64,000 nt of DNA from assembly GCA_027082925.1 (NCBI GenBank), contig JALWTD010000014.1, forward strand, positions 382,393 through 446,392. The letters are read 5' to 3'. Positions 11,135 to 18,680 of the stretch are shown here, piece by piece. Position 1 is the first letter of the stretch; each line of letters starts with the position of its first letter. Source of the DNA: Flavobacteriaceae bacterium (GTDB lineage: Bacteria; Bacteroidota; Bacteroidia; Flavobacteriales; Flavobacteriaceae). The translations under genes were made by a program, and so were the position numbers. The notes below the pieces were generated by a model. The model was not told where the DNA came from and searched no databases. It saw only the letters and a program-made list of their open reading frames with translations.

Positions 11135-12220
11135 ATGCGTAAAAAAAAATCATCAGTATCTGCTTTACATGAGGTTGAGGGAGTTAAACAACCTCTCAGT
11201 ACTAATGATAGTTCTATAAGTAAAATTAAACAAAAACGCAGAGAACAACCTTCTGAAAGTGAGTTTGTTACAAAAATTTTAGCAGGTGATATTTCATACC
11301 TAAGCAGAGCCATTACCTTGGTTGAAAGCACCAATCCAAAACATCAACAAAAATCAAATGCAATTATAGAACAGTGCTTGCCACACGCAAATAAATCGGT
11401 AAGAATTGGCATTACCGGTGTTCCCGGTGTTGGAAAAAGTACTTTTATAGAAGTTTTTGGTAAGTTTTATACTAGCAAAGGAAATAAAGTAGCTGTATTG
11501 GCAATAGATCCTAGTAGCTCTGTAAATAAAGGAAGTATACTTGGTGATAAAACCAGAATGGAAGAATTGGTAAAAGATCAAAATGCTTATATTAGACCTT
11601 CTCCTAGCGGCAATTCTTTAGGTGGCGTTGCTCAAAAAACAAGAGAAACTATTATTTTATGTGAGGCCGCCGGATTTGATACTATTTTTATTGAAACGGT
11701 TGGCGTTGGGCAAAGCGAAACAGCTGTACACTCTATGGTTGATTTTTTCCTATTACTTAAACTTGCTGGTGCCGGAGATGAATTACAAGGAATTAAACGA
11801 GGTATTATTGAAATGGCCGATGCCATTGTTATTAATAAGGCCGATGAAAATAATATAAAACAAGCCGAATTGGCAAAAGCTGAATTTGCACGTGCACTTC
11901 ATTTATACCCTCCAAAAGAAAGCAAATGGCAACCTAAAGTAACTACTTGTAGTGCTTTTTACAACATAGGTATTGATAAAATCTACGAATTAGTTCAAGA
12001 ATATACCAGTTTAACCAAAGTCAACGGCTATTTTGAAAAAAGAAGAAGTGAGCAAAACAATTACTGGTTACTAGAAACTATTAACCAACAGCTAAAAACC
12101 GAATTTTATACCAATAAAAATGTAAAAAAAGCTTTAAAAAAATATATAACCGATATTGAAAATTCTAAAACAACTCCCTTTAAAGCTGCTCAAGAATTAT
12201 TAAAACTATCTAAAAAATAA
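11135..12220 (+). CDS. meaB: methylmalonyl-CoA mutase-associated GTPase MeaB
   Basis: G3E-family GTPase that loads and protects the cobalamin cofactor of methylmalonyl-CoA mutase. Visible motifs are Walker A GVPGVGKST (about residues 96-104), the switch-like DPSSSVNKGSILGDKTRM, the ETVGVGQSE segment around the G3 region, and the base-specificity NKAD (about residue 231). A basic N-terminal extension of about 40 residues precedes the family start. 361 residues. No mutase subunit gene lies in this window. The stop overlaps the next start by one base (TAATG), so it may be translationally coupled to the glycosyltransferase although the functions appear unrelated. Confidence 0.93.
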   Translation: MRKKKSSVSALHEVEGVKQPLSTNDSSISKIKQKRREQPSESEFVTKILAGDISYLSRAITLVESTNPKHQQKSNAIIEQCLPHANKSVRIGITGVPGVGKSTFIEVFGKFYTSKGNKVAVLAIDPSSSVNKGSILGDKTRMEELVKDQNAYIRPSPSGNSLGGVAQKTRETIILCEAAGFDTIFIETVGVGQSETAVHSMVDFFLLLKLAGAGDELQGIKRGIIEMADAIVINKADENNIKQAELAKAEFARALHLYPPKESKWQPKVTTCSAFYNIGIDKIYELVQEYTSLTKVNGYFEKRRSEQNNYWLLETINQQLKTEFYTNKNVKKALKKYITDIENSKTTPFKAAQELLKLSKK

Positions 12221-12933
12221 TGAAATACAAATTTACCATTATTGTTCCTGTTTATAATGAAGAAGACAATTTAAAACGTGTAGAACAAGAACTAACTAAC
12301 TATATAAAAATAGCCTCAAAAAGAACAAAAATCTTATTTGTAAATGATGGTAGTAAAGATAAGAGTCAAACACTTATTGAAACTATTTGTGCTAATAATG
12401 CCGACTTTTCCTTTATTTCTTTTGAAAAAAATTGTGGATTAAGTGCCGCCATTACTGCAGGTTTTGAAGCTGCTGACACCGAACTTGTTGGATATATAGA
12501 TTCTGATTTACAAACAGCACCCGAAGACTTTAATTTACTTTTAGAACATATAAATGAATACGACTTGGTAACCGGAGTAAGAGCTAATAGAAAAGATACT
12601 TTTGTAAAAAACATGTCGTCAACCATTGCAAATGGTATTCGAAGAGCCTTTACGCATGACGGTATGGACGATACCGGATGTCCTCTAAAAGTAATTAAAA
12701 CAAGTTATGCCAAAAAAATTCCTATGTTTAAAGGACTACATCGCTTTTTACCGGCAATGATATTGTTACAAAACGGAAAAATAAAACAAATTCCGGTACA
12801 ACATTTCCCTAGAATTGCTGGAGAAGCAAAATACGGTTTATGGAACAGACTTATTGGACCGTTAATAGATTGTTTTGCGTATTTATGGATGAAGAAAAAG
12901 TATATTAATTATCAAATAGCTAAAAAAGGTTAA
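12220..12933 (+). CDS. GT2 glycosyltransferase, DPM1/ArnC-like (probable polyprenyl-phosphate sugar synthase)
   Basis: A 237-residue GT-A fold enzyme: IIVPVYNEEDNL at the N terminus, FVNDGSKDKS, GLSAAITAGFEAA, and the metal-binding DSDLQTAPED (about residues 92-101). This pattern fits enzymes that move a sugar from a nucleotide donor to a lipid phosphate. There is no long C-terminal membrane anchor, only a mildly hydrophobic tail. It is coupled to meaB upstream and to the LAB_N gene downstream (one-base TAATG overlap each). Specific sugar unknown. Confidence 0.85.
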   Translation: MKYKFTIIVPVYNEEDNLKRVEQELTNYIKIASKRTKILFVNDGSKDKSQTLIETICANNADFSFISFEKNCGLSAAITAGFEAADTELVGYIDSDLQTAPEDFNLLLEHINEYDLVTGVRANRKDTFVKNMSSTIANGIRRAFTHDGMDDTGCPLKVIKTSYAKKIPMFKGLHRFLPAMILLQNGKIKQIPVQHFPRIAGEAKYGLWNRLIGPLIDCFAYLWMKKKYINYQIAKKG

Positions 12934-13559
12934 TGAGTAACTGGATTATTTACGGTATCGGATTTTTAGCGCAACTGCTCTTTTCGGGAAGACTCATTTT
13001 ACAATGGGCTTTATCTGAAAAAAGCAAAAAAGTGTTAACACCTTCCATATTTTGGAAATTGAGTTTAATTGCTTCATTTTTACTGTTTGTATATGGCTAT
13101 TTACGAGATGATTTTGCTATCATGCTGGGACAATCTCTTACCTATTTTATTTATATACGAAATCTACAATTACAAGGAGAATGGCAAAAAGCTCCTAAAT
13201 CACTTCGATGGTTTTTATATCTTTTCCCTGTGTTAATTGTTATTTATTCATTCAATAACAACGTATACGATTTAACAAAGTTATTTAAAAATGAAGCCAT
13301 CCCATTATGGCTACTCCTTTTAGGAAGCGTTGCCCAAGTAATATTTACACTTAGGTTTATTTACCAATGGATTTATTCAGAAAAAAATAAAAAATCGTCA
13401 TTGCCTTTCGGATTTTGGTTGCTGAGCCTTGTTGGGTCAAGTATGATTTTAACGTATGCCATTTTAAGAAAAGATCCGGTGCTCTTTATAGGACATATTA
13501 TGGGAGTGGTTATTTATTTTAGAAATATTCTTATTTTGAGAAAACAACAGAACTCTTAA
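12933..13559 (+). CDS. duplicated LAB_N (lipid-A-disaccharide synthase N-terminal domain) membrane protein
   Basis: A 208-residue integral membrane protein made of two homologous halves. In half 1 (residues 7-78) one reads AQLLFSGRLILQW, SEKSKK, FWKLSL, YGYLRDD, IYIRNL. In half 2 (about 121-202) the matching segments are AQVIFTLRFIYQW, SEKNKK, FWLLSL, YAILRKD, IYFRNI. Each half has about three hydrophobic spans. LAB_N domains are related to the PQ-loop/SWEET fold, so a two-bundle transporter is possible. Located between polyprenyl-phosphate sugar synthase-like genes, it is a candidate for moving lipid-linked sugar across the inner membrane. The fold relation is established knowledge; the flippase role is my inference. 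Confidence 0.85.
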   Translation: MSNWIIYGIGFLAQLLFSGRLILQWALSEKSKKVLTPSIFWKLSLIASFLLFVYGYLRDDFAIMLGQSLTYFIYIRNLQLQGEWQKAPKSLRWFLYLFPVLIVIYSFNNNVYDLTKLFKNEAIPLWLLLLGSVAQVIFTLRFIYQWIYSEKNKKSSLPFGFWLLSLVGSSMILTYAILRKDPVLFIGHIMGVVIYFRNILILRKQQNS

Positions 13560-13576
13560 ACTTTCGTTTTTATCCA

Positions 13577-13584
13577 TATATTTG
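13577..13584 (+). promoter_or_regulatory. possible -7 element TATATTTG before the second glycosyltransferase
   Basis: An exact match to TAnnTTTG, 50 bases before the start at 13634, in the 74-base gap between the LAB_N gene and the second GT2. No TTG was found at the right distance upstream. Confidence 0.4.
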
Positions 13585-13633
13585 TGCAATATTCTTGGCA
13601 ATTCCATGAAAAAATTACAACTAAAATTTTAAA

Positions 13634-14380
13634 ATGATAAAACAATTTCAATTATGTATTGTTATACCTTGTTATAACGAAGAAAAAAGGCTTGAAACAA
13701 AGTGCATAGATACTTTTTTAAAATCACATGAAAATGTTTTATTATGCCTTGTTAACGATGGCTCTTCTGATGATACTTTAAATGTTCTTCAAGGTGTACA
13801 AGCTAAATTTCCTAAAAACATTACGGTAGTTGACACCGTTAATAATGTAGGAAAAGCAGAAGCTGTACGACTTGGGTTTTCTCACTGTGACAATCATTTC
13901 AACTATGATAAAATTGCGTATTTAGATGCCGATTTTGCAACTACGTTAGAAGAATGTTTAGAAATTAGCAACTGTATAAAAAATGAGGTGGTATTTGCTT
14001 TTGGGTCTAGAATTGCCAAAATAGACAATCATATTCAACGAAAACAATCACGTTTTTTAATTGGTAGAGTAATTGCCACATTTATATCAAAACAACTAAA
14101 CCTTGTTGTGTACGATACACAATGTGGTTGTAAAATTTTTCATCACAAACTTGCTTCACAAATTTTTGCTGAAAAATTTATCTCAAAATGGTTATTTGAT
14201 GTGGAATTATTTCATCGAATTATTAAAATATACGGAAGAGATAAAATGGGAACTATTGCTCGAGAAATTCCACTTAAATCTTGGATTGACCAAGGAGATT
14301 CTAGAGTAAAACTCAGCTATTTTTTTAAACTTTGGTACGATTTATACGTTATAGGTAAAACCTATAAATCTGTTAACTAA
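13634..14380 (+). CDS. GT2 glycosyltransferase, ALG5-like
   Basis: A 248-residue GT-A enzyme with IVIPCYNEEKRL, LVNDGSSDDTL, NVGKAEAVRLGF and the metal-binding DADFATTLEE (about residues 97-106). A later segment TQCGCKIF followed by WLFDVELF resembles the dolichyl/polyprenyl-phosphate glucosyltransferase subgroup. No clear membrane anchor. It differs from the first GT2 in this cluster, so the two may make two different lipid-linked sugars, matching the two ArnT-like transferases downstream. Donor unknown. Confidence 0.85.
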   Translation: MIKQFQLCIVIPCYNEEKRLETKCIDTFLKSHENVLLCLVNDGSSDDTLNVLQGVQAKFPKNITVVDTVNNVGKAEAVRLGFSHCDNHFNYDKIAYLDADFATTLEECLEISNCIKNEVVFAFGSRIAKIDNHIQRKQSRFLIGRVIATFISKQLNLVVYDTQCGCKIFHHKLASQIFAEKFISKWLFDVELFHRIIKIYGRDKMGTIAREIPLKSWIDQGDSRVKLSYFFKLWYDLYVIGKTYKSVN

Positions 14381-14395
14381 TTTTTTAATTACCCT

Positions 14396-15796
14396 ATGAA
14401 GATTTCTAAAAAAATATCAGTTTACGCACTGTTAGTTATTGGCTTGTTATTATTTAGAGCCTTTTTTAATTATGCGATTCCTCTAATGGACAAAACTGAA
14501 GCTCGTTATTCTGAAATTGCCAGAATTATGGCAGAAACTAACGATTTTACAACCTTACAAATAGATTATGGCGTTCCGTTTTGGGCAAAACCTCCTTTAT
14601 CTACTTGGTTAACAGCATTGAGTTTTAAATGGTTTGGCGTAAATGAATTTACAGCAAGATTACCGTATTTACTTTTAAACATACTTGTAATTTTACTCAT
14701 TGGAAGATATGCTGAACGTAAAAAAATAGACTTTTTTATTCCGGCTGTAATTTTGTTAACCATCCCTGAATTTTTAATTCATACAGGTGTGGTTTCTACA
14801 GATACTGCCTTGGCTTTTAGCGTAACTCTGGTAATGATTTCATTTTGGGAAGCTTTAAACAACAAATCTAATAAACTCTGGAAGTATTTGTTTTTTGTGG
14901 GCTTAGGATTGGGTTTATTAGCTAAAGGACCTATTATTTTTGTGTTAACAGCTCCTCCTATTTTTATATGGTGTGTGTTGTTTAAAAAGTTTAAAACAAT
15001 CTGGAAAGTTTTCCCTTGGGTTTTAGGTACGTTACTTGTGGCCATTATTGCAATTCCTTGGTATTACTTAGCAGAACAAAAAACACCGGGGTTTTTAGAT
15101 TATTTTATTGTAGGAGAGCATTTTAAACGCTATTTAAGTTCTGGCTGGAAAGGTGATAAATACGGCTTTCCTAAATCGCAACCTCTTGGTATGGTTTGGG
15201 TATTTTTAGCTGTTTTTGCCTTGCCATGGATTCAAGCTACCGTTGGAAAAATTTGGAAAAACAAAACTCATGTTTTTAAAGATAAATGGCTTGCTTTTCT
15301 AATTTTATGGCTGTTGTGGACCCCACTGTTTTTTACCGTATCTAAAAGCCTCATTCATCCTTATATTATGCCGGTAATGGTACCTATTGCTTTATTAATA
15401 ACACATTGGTGGAATGATATTCGCAAAAAAAAGATGCTCCTCAAAATAGGAATGATACTCCCTGTAACCGTTTTATTGCTCTTTATTTTTATTTCGTTTA
15501 GCGGTAAAAAAGAGTTTTATGCCAATTCTGATAAATACTTAATTGAAAATAATGTAACTGAAAATGTTCCTGTTTTTCACTGGCAAAGTAAAAGCTACTC
15601 CGGTCAATTTTACACAAAAGGAAAAATGGATGTTATAGAAAATAACAAACGTTTAAAAACACGCATAAACTCCGGAGAACCATTTATGGTTATAATTCCA
15701 AATAAGCGAATTAAGTTAATTGATTCGTTACATTTAAAACAATTAACCAAAATAGGTGCTAACTATAAAAAAGGAATTTATTTATTTAAAAAATAA
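14396..15796 (+). CDS. ArnT/PMT-like membrane glycosyltransferase, first copy
   Basis: A 466-residue GT-C fold protein with about ten hydrophobic spans. The first periplasmic loop carries the acidic motif DKTEARYSEIARIM (about residues 31-44), then FWAKPPLSTWLTAL. Both are hallmarks of the ArnT/PMT superfamily, in which the acidic residue of the first loop is catalytic and KPP is conserved. These enzymes use a polyprenyl-phosphate sugar to modify lipid A, glycans or proteins on the periplasmic side. The C-terminal soluble tail (about 370-466) is modest. It lies 15 bases after the ALG5-like gene and before a second transferase. Confidence 0.88.
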   Translation: MKISKKISVYALLVIGLLLFRAFFNYAIPLMDKTEARYSEIARIMAETNDFTTLQIDYGVPFWAKPPLSTWLTALSFKWFGVNEFTARLPYLLLNILVILLIGRYAERKKIDFFIPAVILLTIPEFLIHTGVVSTDTALAFSVTLVMISFWEALNNKSNKLWKYLFFVGLGLGLLAKGPIIFVLTAPPIFIWCVLFKKFKTIWKVFPWVLGTLLVAIIAIPWYYLAEQKTPGFLDYFIVGEHFKRYLSSGWKGDKYGFPKSQPLGMVWVFLAVFALPWIQATVGKIWKNKTHVFKDKWLAFLILWLLWTPLFFTVSKSLIHPYIMPVMVPIALLITHWWNDIRKKKMLLKIGMILPVTVLLLFIFISFSGKKEFYANSDKYLIENNVTENVPVFHWQSKSYSGQFYTKGKMDVIENNKRLKTRINSGEPFMVIIPNKRIKLIDSLHLKQLTKIGANYKKGIYLFKK

Positions 15797-15813
15797 GTGA
15801 TTAAAAAAACACA

Positions 15814-17439
15814 ATGCTAAATTTCGCACAAAAAAATCCGCTCGTTACAATTTCAATTGTGGTATTACTCATGCTATTAATCCACTTAGATGTTCCTAAT
15901 ATCACCATTATGGAAGCTCGAAATTTTATTACAGCTAGAGAGTTACTTCAAAATAATGATTGGCTACTTACCACAATGAATGGAGAAGCTAGATACCAAA
16001 AACCTCCTTTACCTACTTGGCTAACCGCATTGTCTGGAATCTCTTTTGGAATACAAAGTCTTTTTGCTTTACGATTACCCGGTGTTTTAATGGTTTTATT
16101 ATTGGCTTTTAGTCTTTATTTTTTGTCGTTAAAACTAAAATTATCAAAAATTCATTCGTTACACAACAGCCTTATTTTAGTAACATCGTTTTACGTAATA
16201 GCTATTATAAATGAAGCTCCTTGGGATATTTACACACATGCCTTTATGCTTACAGCACTGTACTTTTTATTCCAAGTTTTAGAAAGTGACAAGGTAATAT
16301 GGAAACAACTTATTTACAGTGCCTTTTTTGTAGGATGCTCTATTATGAGTAAAGGACCGGTATCACTTTACGCCCTTTTCTTACCCTTTTTAATTTCTTA
16401 TGGAATTACTTTTAAATTCAAGAATTTAAAGAAAAAAGGACTTGCTTTTATCGTGTATATCGTATTGTTTTTACTTGTAGGAAGTTGGTGGTTTGTATAT
16501 GTACGTATTGCCGATGCAGATGCTTTTCTAAAAATTGCGTCTAAAGAAACAGGAAATTGGAGTAGCTATAACGTAAAGCCTTTTTATTACTATTGGAGCT
16601 TTTTTACACAAAGCGGATTGTGGACTATTCCTGCTTTTATTAGCTTGCTATACCCTTATTTAATAAAACGTGTTCAATATACAAAAGCCTATCAATTTTC
16701 ATTTTGGTGGACAATTATTGCGGTTGTATTACTCTCTCTTATTCCTGAAAAAAAACCTCGCTATTTAATGCCGGTACTAATTCCGTTAGCAATAAATACC
16801 GGATTTTATATTCAGTATTTAATAGAAACTTTTTCCGGCTTAAAAAACAAAAAAGAAACCATTCCTGTATACTTTAATTTTGGACTTATAAGTACTATTG
16901 CTATTGCTTTTCCTATTGCAGGTTATTTTGTATTTAACAATAGCTTAGATACCTTTTTAGTGAGTTATATCTTAACATCAGTGGCCGTTTTTAGCATTGG
17001 TATTGCTATGCTTAAAAAATTAATTCAGAAAAAAATACAGTCGGTATTTTACCTTACTATTGCTTTTATGATGGCTATTTTTATTTTTGGGCTTCCGCTT
17101 TCTAAAAGTTTTAATAAAAATACCGAATACCAAGCCATAAATTCGCTTCATAGTATTGAACAAAATAGCGGATTTAAGACTTACTCCGTTGGTGAAATAA
17201 CTCCTGAACTACTTTGGGACTACAATGGCTATTTGAAAAATATATTTTTGAACAATCATCTTTTAATACCTTCTGAAGAAAAATTCGGTTTGCTTATTTT
17301 GAATAAAGATGTGGCGTTTATAAAAAAAGAACTTGCTCCTAATTACAATTTAAAACACCTAAAAACATACAATTTAAATGTAGGTAGCAGAAAAAAAGAA
17401 AGGCTTATTAGACAACTATATCTAGTTACAAAAAAATAG
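15814..17439 (+). CDS. ArnT/PMT-like membrane glycosyltransferase, second copy
   Basis: A 541-residue GT-C protein with many membrane spans. The first-loop motif is TIMEARNFITARELL (about residues 31-45), followed by YQKPPLPTWLTAL. The Asp-Glu pair seen in ArnT is reduced to the single Glu of MEAR. It differs strongly from the first copy outside these motifs, so they are old paralogues rather than a recent duplication. The spacing of 17 bases argues for one operon. It probably transfers a lipid-linked sugar to a periplasmic acceptor; the acceptor cannot be read from sequence. Confidence 0.86.
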   Translation: MLNFAQKNPLVTISIVVLLMLLIHLDVPNITIMEARNFITARELLQNNDWLLTTMNGEARYQKPPLPTWLTALSGISFGIQSLFALRLPGVLMVLLLAFSLYFLSLKLKLSKIHSLHNSLILVTSFYVIAIINEAPWDIYTHAFMLTALYFLFQVLESDKVIWKQLIYSAFFVGCSIMSKGPVSLYALFLPFLISYGITFKFKNLKKKGLAFIVYIVLFLLVGSWWFVYVRIADADAFLKIASKETGNWSSYNVKPFYYYWSFFTQSGLWTIPAFISLLYPYLIKRVQYTKAYQFSFWWTIIAVVLLSLIPEKKPRYLMPVLIPLAINTGFYIQYLIETFSGLKNKKETIPVYFNFGLISTIAIAFPIAGYFVFNNSLDTFLVSYILTSVAVFSIGIAMLKKLIQKKIQSVFYLTIAFMMAIFIFGLPLSKSFNKNTEYQAINSLHSIEQNSGFKTYSVGEITPELLWDYNGYLKNIFLNNHLLIPSEEKFGLLILNKDVAFIKKELAPNYNLKHLKTYNLNVGSRKKERLIRQLYLVTKK

Positions 17440-17451
17440 TATTTTTACATT

Positions 17452-18126
17452 ATGAATTTAAAATCGATTACACGAACAGAAAAATTGGCTTATGCGTTTT
17501 TAGCCGCAATATTTGGATTGGGAATTTACTATTCTAATACCAATTTAACCTATTTTGACGAAGTTTACACTAAAGAAGACGGTCTTGTAGAATACGGAAC
17601 TGCAATAATGCTTTTATGCTCTAGTTTATTATTGTTTGGCCGGTTTTTTAAATTCTTTAAACACAAAAGTATCTCTTGGAGAATAGGCGTATTTTTTATG
17701 GCACTTATTTTCTTTTTTGGGACAGGTGAAGAAATTTCTTGGGGACAACGTATTTTTAATATTGAATCGTCTCAGTATTTTATAGAACACAATGCGCAAG
17801 GAGAAACCAATCTTCACAACATGGTTGTAGATGGAAAAAAGGTGAACAAAATTATTTTTAGTCAACTTTTAACCATTATTTTGGTTTTATACTTGTTAAT
17901 TACACCTATTTTATATAAAAAATGGACTTGGTTGCAAAAACTGATTACAATGTTTGCAGTACCTATTGTAAAATGGCATCATACCGCTGTTTTTTTAATT
18001 GTTACGGCACTTTTAGTATTTATTCCTTCAGACAGGAAATGGGAACTGCACGAACTCGCGTTTGGTGTGCTCTTTTTCTTAATATTTTTAAGTCCGCTAA
18101 ATAAAGAAATTTACGAAACCAATTAG
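17452..18126 (+). CDS. integral membrane protein of unknown family
   Basis: This 224-residue protein has about six hydrophobic segments: near 13-27, 47-63, 74-90, 135-152, 162-185 and 198-214. The most striking conserved-looking feature is [13 protein letters not shown] (about residues 90-102) at the end of the third span, an acidic-aromatic motif that could be a catalytic or binding loop. I do not recognise the family. It is the last gene of the glycosylation cluster (12 bases after the second ArnT-like gene) and its stop overlaps the convergent PAP2 gene by four bases. It might be an accessory or acceptor-modifying component. Confidence 0.7.
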
Positions 18127-18680
18127 TGGTGTATTTTTTGAAATACGTTGTAAAAAATGCTTCCGTAAAAAGCTCCTATTAACATACCTGTAAGAACATC
18201 TAGCGGATAATGCACTCCTACGTATATTCTACTATACGAGACCAAAACTGCCCACAAAAATAAAGCAGTAAAAATATATTTTACATGTTTTTTTAATAGT
18301 AATCCTAGAAAAAATACGATTGCCATTGTATTTGCAGCATGTGCTGAAAAAAAGGAGTACAAACCTCCACATCTACCAGCTACCAGCCTAATTAATGGAG
18401 AAACAAGCTCATCGTGACACGGTCTAAGTCGTTTAAATCCAAACTTAAATAAGTTACTTGTTTGATCGGTTAACGCAATAAGTAAGGCTACACCTACAAG
18501 TGTATACAGCGTTCTTTTAAGACCTATATTTTTGTATAATAAAAATAACAACAACAAATACAATGGAATGGCACTAAACTTATTGGTTATAAAAAGCCAA
18601 AAGCCATCCCATTGAGTTGTTCCTAAATTATTTAAATAAATTAGTAACGCTATGTCTTTATTGATTAAAAAATCGTACAT
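18123..18680 (-). CDS. PAP2 family membrane phosphatase
   Basis: A 185-residue membrane protein with the three PAP2 signature elements: KFGFKRLRP (the K-x6-RP motif, about residues 86-94), FSAHA (the PSGH-like motif, near 117) and [13 protein letters not shown] (SR-x5-H-x3-D, about 155-167). Members dephosphorylate undecaprenyl diphosphate, phosphatidylglycerol phosphate or lipid A. It is convergent with the glycosylation cluster, so a link to lipid carrier recycling or lipid A dephosphorylation is plausible but rests only on position. The specific substrate cannot be assigned. Confidence 0.88.

Follow-up and report, generated by a model that had tools for sequence, protein, structure and literature searches.

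In the bacterial arn pathway (ArnC-ArnE/F-ArnT), 4-amino-4-deoxy-L-arabinose (L-Ara4N) is handled in turn by a glycosyltransferase of the GT2 family, a small membrane flippase, ArnE/F, which is of the SMR type, and a transferase of the GT83 family. The Rgt system of rhizobia comprises RgtE, a GT2 that makes the donor polyprenyl-phosphate galacturonic acid (polyprenyl-P-GalA), the GT83-type galacturonic acid (GalA) transferases RgtA-D and RgtF, and the lipid A phosphatases LpxE and LpxF, which free the acceptor site. The eukaryotic pathway of dolichyl-phosphate mannose (Dol-P-Man; DPM1, MPDU1/Lec35, PMT) uses a DPM1-like GT2 and GT-C transferases. How polyprenyl- and dolichyl-phosphate monosaccharides cross the membrane is poorly settled, and for MPDU1, a member of the PQ-loop family connected with Dol-P-Man use, the mechanism was still unsettled as of 2012 (PMC3281891, excerpt). 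Here we describe a gene cluster of this kind from a marine flavobacterium. The window, by which we mean the whole stretch of 64,000 nucleotides that was analysed, covers positions 382,393 to 446,392 of contig JALWTD010000014.1 (Flavobacteriaceae bacterium, assembly GCA_027082925.1); its genome measures 2.47 Mb and is 99.98% complete, and its closest named relatives are Lutibacter. The comparisons below show that two modules meet in this cluster: a core consisting of a GT2 (GT2a), a LAB_N membrane protein (LABN) and an ArnT/PMT-type transferase (GT83b), often with a convergent PAP2 phosphatase, and a portable pair of a second GT2 (GT2b) and a second transferase (GT83a). We regard the whole as an ArnT-type glycosylation from lipid-linked sugars in which the LAB_N component is what is new. 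The chances appear to us evenly balanced that the core is a lipid-linked GalA pathway with GT2b and GT83a as its accessory pair, where the sugar, the flipping, the acceptor and the roles of PAP2 and of the membrane protein MP7 are what we infer. The genes are the following (counts refer to the 80 related loci introduced below).

11135..12220, + strand: MeaB-type GTPase, whose gene shares one base with that of GT2a; found in 49 of 80 loci
12220..12933, + strand: GT2a, DPM1/ArnC-like polyprenyl-phosphate GT2 of 237 amino acids (Glycos_transf_2, E = 1.4e-25, Pfam/NCBIfam)
12933..13559, + strand: LABN, duplicated LAB_N membrane protein (two LAB_N units, E = 5.1e-59)
13634..14380, + strand: GT2b, second GT2, of 248 amino acids (Glycos_transf_2, E = 7e-20)
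14396..15796, + strand: GT83a, ArnT/PMT-type transferase (PMT/PMT_2, E = 5.4e-24)
15814..17439, + strand: GT83b, ArnT/PMT-type transferase, a weaker PMT/PMT_2 family member
17452..18126, + strand: MP7, orphan membrane protein (no family over the cut-off); present in 38 of 80 loci
18123..18680, - strand: PAP2-type phosphatase, convergent (PAP2, E = 5.7e-23); found in 62 of 80 loci

The order of events proposed here, from a GT2 through a small membrane flippase to a GT83, is that of the arn pathway, which differs in its L-Ara4N sugar, while LABN is of the SWEET/PQ-loop type and GT2a is without a membrane domain. With the Dol-P-Man pathway the cluster shares, by description, a DPM1-like GT2, a seven-helix PQ-loop protein and GT-C transferases. 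The Rgt system resembles our proposal in having a maker of polyprenyl-P-GalA, transferases and site-freeing phosphatases. It differs in that no LAB_N protein is named for Rgt in the available part of PMC7663294, whereas in the present cluster PAP2 lies convergently and LABN is the component always found with GT2a. In Oligotropha the homologues of rgtE, lpxE and rgtF carry consecutive locus tags (PMC7663294, in part), a series that may serve as a precedent for a GT2, a phosphatase and a transferase standing together. The idea that RgtF could be the flippase of that system proved wrong, since RgtF is an alpha-(1,1)-GalA transferase (PMC7663294, same part).

The two modules are seen in the gene order of related loci. 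A scan of genome contigs for LABN gave 333 confirmed stretches, the best 80 of which were kept; by record titles they are mostly from flavobacteria, and the set is biased to closer relatives of the window. All 80 loci were mapped with the window's proteins, and contig ends depress the counts of the outer genes. GT2a stands immediately 5' of LABN in 80 of 80 loci (one truncated by a contig end) and GT83b was detected in 78, while PAP2, where detected, is always on the opposite strand (62/62). An NAD epimerase is present in 28 loci, and 27 of these epimerase genes immediately precede GT2a. GT2b occurs in 17 loci with GT83a adjacent in every one, and a further GT83a was seen at the contig end of locus L039. 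The pair occupies one of three places: between LABN and GT83b (5 loci), 5' of GT2a or MeaB (9 loci), or flanked by MeaB and the epimerase (3 loci). The complete order GT2a-LABN-GT2b-GT83a-GT83b-MP7-PAP2 is kept exactly in three loci, all of them titled Lutibacter.

Additionally, we compared the two modules in 120 genomes of the family, representing 119 genera. A LABN match at E <= 0.001 was obtained in 58, and dropping two marginal ones (G270, G282) left 56 strong LABN genomes. GT2b matched 44 of the 120 at E <= 1e-30, and only the upper group with at least 47% identity (n=14) was used. Six of these 14 carry LABN and eight do not, against a base rate of 56/120 (Fisher p 0.78). Around GT2b, 12 of the 14 loci were examined, the window and G016 being left out: GT83a adjoins GT2b in nine, the pair being found also in LABN-free genomes; a different GT39-like gene was noted by eye near GT2b in two (L183, L184), and in L179 GT83a was not found within the 12 kb examined. 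Thus GT2b-GT83a travels as a unit, at three positions and independently of LABN, and the partners cross the gene order, GT2a belonging with GT83b and GT2b with GT83a.

The same separation is seen in a tree of 31 chosen GT2 sequences, in which all 19 LABN-linked enzymes, from four phyla, fall on one side and all 10 GT2b enzymes on the other (support 90/88), with a single change between the groups in 100% of 200 bootstrap trees. The original prediction had seen in these genes a single system using two lipid-linked sugars. That there are two such sugars is probably right, as both the donor-making GT2s and the ArnT/PMT-type transferases come in two distinct kinds. One conserved two-sugar system is, however, rejected by the 80-locus comparison together with the table of LABN against GT2b, and the conservation of gene neighbourhood that was suggested as a check holds for the core but fails for the whole set. 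The observation itself is confirmed and its interpretation partly supported: the listed genes are intact open reading frames at the given coordinates with the family memberships claimed for them, including the two units of LABN, the orphan status of MP7 and the convergent phosphatase. LABN had been given no role and no sugar had been named, and LABN turned out to be the most informative gene.

GT2a, correctly called DPM1/ArnC-like beforehand, matches the solved ArnC (9hwj, 4e-27), GtrB (5eke, 1.2e-17) and DPM synthase (5mlz, 2.5e-8). Hydropathy gave no transmembrane helix for GT2a (top 19-residue mean 0.9), which has no C-terminal membrane domain of its own, and a membrane helix was likewise not found in GT2b, which bore the label ALG5-like in the original prediction. 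The solved ArnC/GtrB chains are 322-363 amino acids long against 237 for GT2a, the extra length holding membrane helices; DPM1-like GT2s without a membrane domain exist. The solved ArnT 5ezm, the sole solved relative found for GT83a or GT83b, aligns with both (1.8e-19 and 4e-5), and both keep the first-loop Glu and the KPP motif, so that the two distinct ArnT/PMT-like transferases announced earlier are indeed there. GT83b scores 21.5 bits with PMT against a cut-off of 22.7 in one search, which listed no PMT_2 match, and 48.3 bits with PMT_2, above cut-off, in a six-frame search. Its E34, K63-P64-P65 and D138 are invariant across all 78 aligned rows (the window included, one fragment omitted), and D32, E35, K65, P66 and D136 of GT83a are kept in all 18 ungapped rows of 19. 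The position matching the first Asp of 5ezm is non-Asp in both transferases. The NCBIfam ArnT equivalog, with its cut-off of 567 bits, gives 110 and 63 bits for the two transferases; the matches of the ArnC model to GT2a and of the ArnT model to both GT83s are below cut-off.

LABN is matched by Pfam LAB_N in both halves, and profile comparison joins half 1 to half 2 at 99.7% and the halves to the single form at 99.8-99.9%. The nine aligned LABN proteins from outside the Bacteroidota are single units of 91-111 amino acids, whereas the window's form is duplicated. Against a SemiSWEET profile the hhalign probabilities are 96.6% for half 2, 90.6% for half 1 and 97.2% for the single form, compared with less than 1% for all 20 control segments from GT83a, GT83b, MP7 and PAP2; the 14 SemiSWEET-like proteins behind this comparison were picked by eye from 20 stretches with a weak LAB_N match and are not independent of LAB_N. 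Two further models match the window's LABN without reaching their cut-offs, MtN3_slv at E = 4.5e-4 and SemiSWEET_3 at E = 3.6e-4, and the solved SemiSWEET 4qnd matches it weakly (E = 0.04). Plain hydropathy by itself gives five clear segments; the AlphaFold2 model (predicted local distance difference test score 87) has seven helices (3-31, 38-57, 61-80, 89-108, 125-152, 159-179 and 182-207) in the 3-1-3 layout of SWEET. Judged from these profiles, LAB_N is related to SemiSWEET: the two share profile homology, a single or duplicated three-helix unit and the 3-1-3 layout, and they differ in motif, RFxxQW of LAB_N standing where SemiSWEET-like proteins have PQ, and in context, which is lipid-linked rather than free sugar. 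A nearness of LAB_N to the PQ-loop family was known before, its InterPro name appearing among PQ-loop annotations (PMC3281891, excerpt); a role as flippase is not named for LAB_N in the titles and abstract openings of the literature searched. We consider LABN a candidate flippase of the lipid-linked sugar. The broader proposition, that LAB_N proteins in general flip polyprenyl-phosphate sugars as SWEET-type proteins, working with polyprenyl-P-GalA synthases in at least four phyla as the bacterial counterpart of MPDU1, is more tentative, and we hold it to be somewhat less probable than its contrary.

The core is old, and its members recur far from the flavobacteria. The window's LABN matched 18 plasmid records from four phyla (Paracoccus 5, Azospirillum 4, Hymenobacter 2, Cetobacterium 2 and one each of five others), all of which were examined; their neighbourhoods were searched by tblastn, the queries being the window's proteins plus some annotated proteins from the same records. 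Within about 4.5 kb of LABN a GT2 is present in 16 of the 18, a GT39/83 in 17 (weak in L136), an epimerase in 12 and a UDP-glucose dehydrogenase (at least 45% identity) in 3. GT2, LABN and GT39/83 recur as a group in Alphaproteobacteria and Fusobacteriota; Cetobacterium has in a single run GT2, LABN, an epimerase-type gene, UDP-glucose dehydrogenase and GT39, the epimerase-type gene being annotated as GDP-mannose 4,6-dehydratase with 5u4q, then 6zl6, as its best PDB matches. Among 198 sampled Bacteroidota genomes LAB_N matched 35 at E <= 0.001, 8 of them strongly, and the 9 LABN loci of these 8 contain GT2 in 7 cases and GT83 in 7. One genome of the same class as the window encodes LABN fused to a GT83 in a 753-residue protein (L116:7809-10070). 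The GT83 of some distant loci (L111, L113, L115, L116) is nearer GT83a than GT83b, therefore the transferase itself has been exchanged; an extra distant GT83 is found in seven of the 80 loci as well, and the operon seems to hold a variable transferase slot. Such a gene follows directly after LABN in L028 (8639-10264) and likewise in L029, L031, L035, L043 and L050. A Phocaeicola massiliensis plasmid has GT83, GT2, LABN and epimerase in series (L141:2127-6184). LABN adjoins RND efflux genes on two Hymenobacter plasmids (L133, L140; annotated) and in L117 (by eye), and on the two plasmids, where no GT2 was found, it also lies beside two-component regulators. Such regulators are found near LABN in Hymenobacter, Cetobacterium, Ilyobacter, Thalassospira and one Paracoccus, which would fit an envelope modification under stress control.

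The epimerase gives the best indication of the sugar. Its linked type (E <= 1e-50) is carried by 43 of the 56 LABN genomes of the family against 4 of the 64 without LABN (Fisher p 2.5e-16, a value that kinship of the genomes makes too small). It lies within 5 kb of LABN in 37 of the 43 and elsewhere in the genome in 6, so the link is more than positional. Its nearest solved relatives are the 6zl6 group, then 5u4q, then MoeE5; the PDB names are vague, and we take the 6zl6 group and MoeE5 to be UDP-glucuronic acid 4-epimerases. The NCBIfam models gave no decision on its product. Because this epimerase accompanies LABN, the core sugar is most likely GalA, and GT2a, the core donor maker, probably produces polyprenyl-P-GalA. 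For the window itself GalA is our best guess, founded on the orthology of GT2a, and the UDP-sugar supply genes sit outside the locus: a UDP-glucose dehydrogenase-like gene with 50% identity, and at C14 a 349-residue epimerase whose best match is 5u4q (2.8e-111), deposited as a dTDP-glucose 4,6-dehydratase. Another epimerase, at C21 with 35% identity, lies beside a second sugar dehydrogenase and looks, judged by eye, like a different type; the C14 candidate was preferred.

The PAP2 protein has LpxE as its best solved relative (6ebu, 4.9e-8), and the residues kept in 97% or more of the 63 aligned rows include K79, R84, R86, P87, S112, H114, S150, R151, H157 and D161. Its best NCBIfam match, undecaprenyl-diphosphatase SepP, is below cut-off, and by sequence alone LpxE/LpxF cannot be separated from other PAP2 enzymes. 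With the nearness to LpxE and the Oligotropha gene series, dephosphorylation before lipid A glycosylation would be the natural reading, and PAP2 a candidate for the lipid A phosphatase by which the site is made free for the sugar. A function as recycling phosphatase was considered less likely, as BacA is present in the window genome (along with two more PAP2 genes elsewhere) and ArnT-type transfer releases the monophosphate.

Put together, GT2a would transfer a uronic acid, in all likelihood GalA from UDP-GalA, to polyprenyl phosphate at the inner face of the membrane, LABN would carry the lipid-linked sugar to the outer face, and GT83b would attach it to an acceptor facing outward. Lipid A or the inner core is the most likely acceptor, and PAP2 may free the site by dephosphorylation. 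GT2b, the putative donor maker of the portable module, would make a second polyprenyl-phosphate sugar for GT83a to transfer, LABN not being needed for it.

Several observations weigh against this reading, in addition to the kinship behind the epimerase count. A Foldseek search with the model of LABN returned nothing at E <= 0.001; a G-protein-coupled receptor ranked first (E = 0.14), and SWEET 5cth (E = 0.34) and SemiSWEET 4x5n (E = 0.45) superposed poorly. Among the Bacteroidota loci, neither a GT2 nor a GT83 was detected with the LABN of L117, L114 lacks a detected GT2 and L118 a detected GT83. In two Gillisia loci, L097 (4843-5145) and L106 (after 8651), GT2a-LABN is kept but an intact GT83 is missing; at the GT83 position L097 shows a short open reading frame, a possible remnant. 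PAP2 is convergent and went undetected in 18 of the 80 loci (some ending at contig ends). The linked epimerase type is absent in 13 of the 56 LABN genomes, the window's included, of which nine (again with the window's) carry another type (E <= 1e-90; best match 5u4q) and four neither, and this second type is not enriched with LABN (13/56 vs 25/64). In Paenibacillus cellulosilyticus, UDP-glucose dehydrogenase, epimerase, GT2 and LABN are consecutive (L142:1344-4719), and Paenibacillus is Gram-positive and has no lipid A. Finally, the lipid A of a Zunongwangia strain of the same family, which may or may not carry the locus, has phosphate or phosphoethanolamine and no GalA according to the part of that report available.

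Four other explanations were considered. One sees in LABN no flippase but a subunit that anchors GT2a in the membrane or activates it, in the way DPM2/DPM3 serve mammalian DPM1. GT2a is short and has no transmembrane helix by hydropathy, LABN is its most constant neighbour, and the Gillisia loci keep precisely these two genes; however, GT2b is equally without a membrane helix and yet LABN-free in 8 of 14 genomes, the single fusion found links LABN to a GT83 and not to a GT2, and the transporter-type fold exceeds the needs of an anchor. We think this rather unlikely. Less probable still, indeed the least of the four, is a LABN that serves both pairs, both sugars going to one acceptor, as the original prediction implied: the single gene run with short gaps would suit it, and so would the 17 of 80 loci with GT2b-GT83a close to the core, but GT2b meets LABN at chance level and the pair occurs in LABN-free genomes.

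That the sugar goes to another outward-facing lipid, a polysaccharide or a protein, with PAP2 as an unrelated neighbour, is the most serious of the four, doubtful though we hold it. The Paenibacillus cluster, the convergent orientation of PAP2, its resemblance to undecaprenyl-diphosphatase models (all below cut-off) and the lipid A of Zunongwangia, the one of this family considered and then from an excerpt, speak for it; lipid A or core as the acceptor is favoured by the lipid A enzyme ArnT being the only solved relative of either transferase, by LpxE as the best solved match of PAP2, by BacA, which makes PAP2 unneeded for recycling, and by the two-component regulators flanking several LABN loci, as expected of envelope modification. 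As for glucuronic acid or some other product in place of GalA, with the epimerase serving another purpose, it would agree with the window genome and the four genomes lacking the respective epimerase types at the thresholds used and with the undecided NCBIfam models; it fits poorly with the co-occurrence of epimerase and LABN, unlinked genomes included, and with the epimerases in 12 of 18 plasmid records, and we consider it improbable to about the same degree as the anchor. The preferred reading remains the core GalA pathway with its accessory pair.

Two genes of the run stand further aside. On the + strand the intergenic distances go from a one-base overlap up to 74 bp, and because of the short gaps and the MeaB/GT2a overlap these genes look co-transcribed; MeaB is nonetheless a positional neighbour with an unlikely part in the glycosylation system. 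MP7 has about six predicted helices and a conserved loop around GEEISWGQR and NAQ.ETNLHN. The window's member matched nothing in Pfam at E <= 0.1, while 29 members gave scattered weak matches, the best being Wzy_C (7.7e-4) in 6; NCBIfam gave one match below cut-off, no PDB sequence matched at E <= 1, and Foldseek returned no match at E <= 0.001. Relatives occur in three other genomes of the 198 (L145:7451-8176, L146:6871-8019 and L147:7387-8697, all on the - strand), and their 15 kb stretches hold no LABN, GT2 or GT83 match at E <= 1e-4. MP7 and the epimerase (38 and 28 loci) never share a locus among the 80.

If the proposed pathway is true, the flipping question, poorly settled for MPDU1 and its kind, would become testable with a bacterial relative that is small and belongs to a pathway of three genes, available as a single unit of about 90-110 amino acids or in duplicated form. 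It would also give a function to the widespread LAB_N family, whose name is misleading, and it would predict envelopes decorated with uronic acid in many marine flavobacteria.

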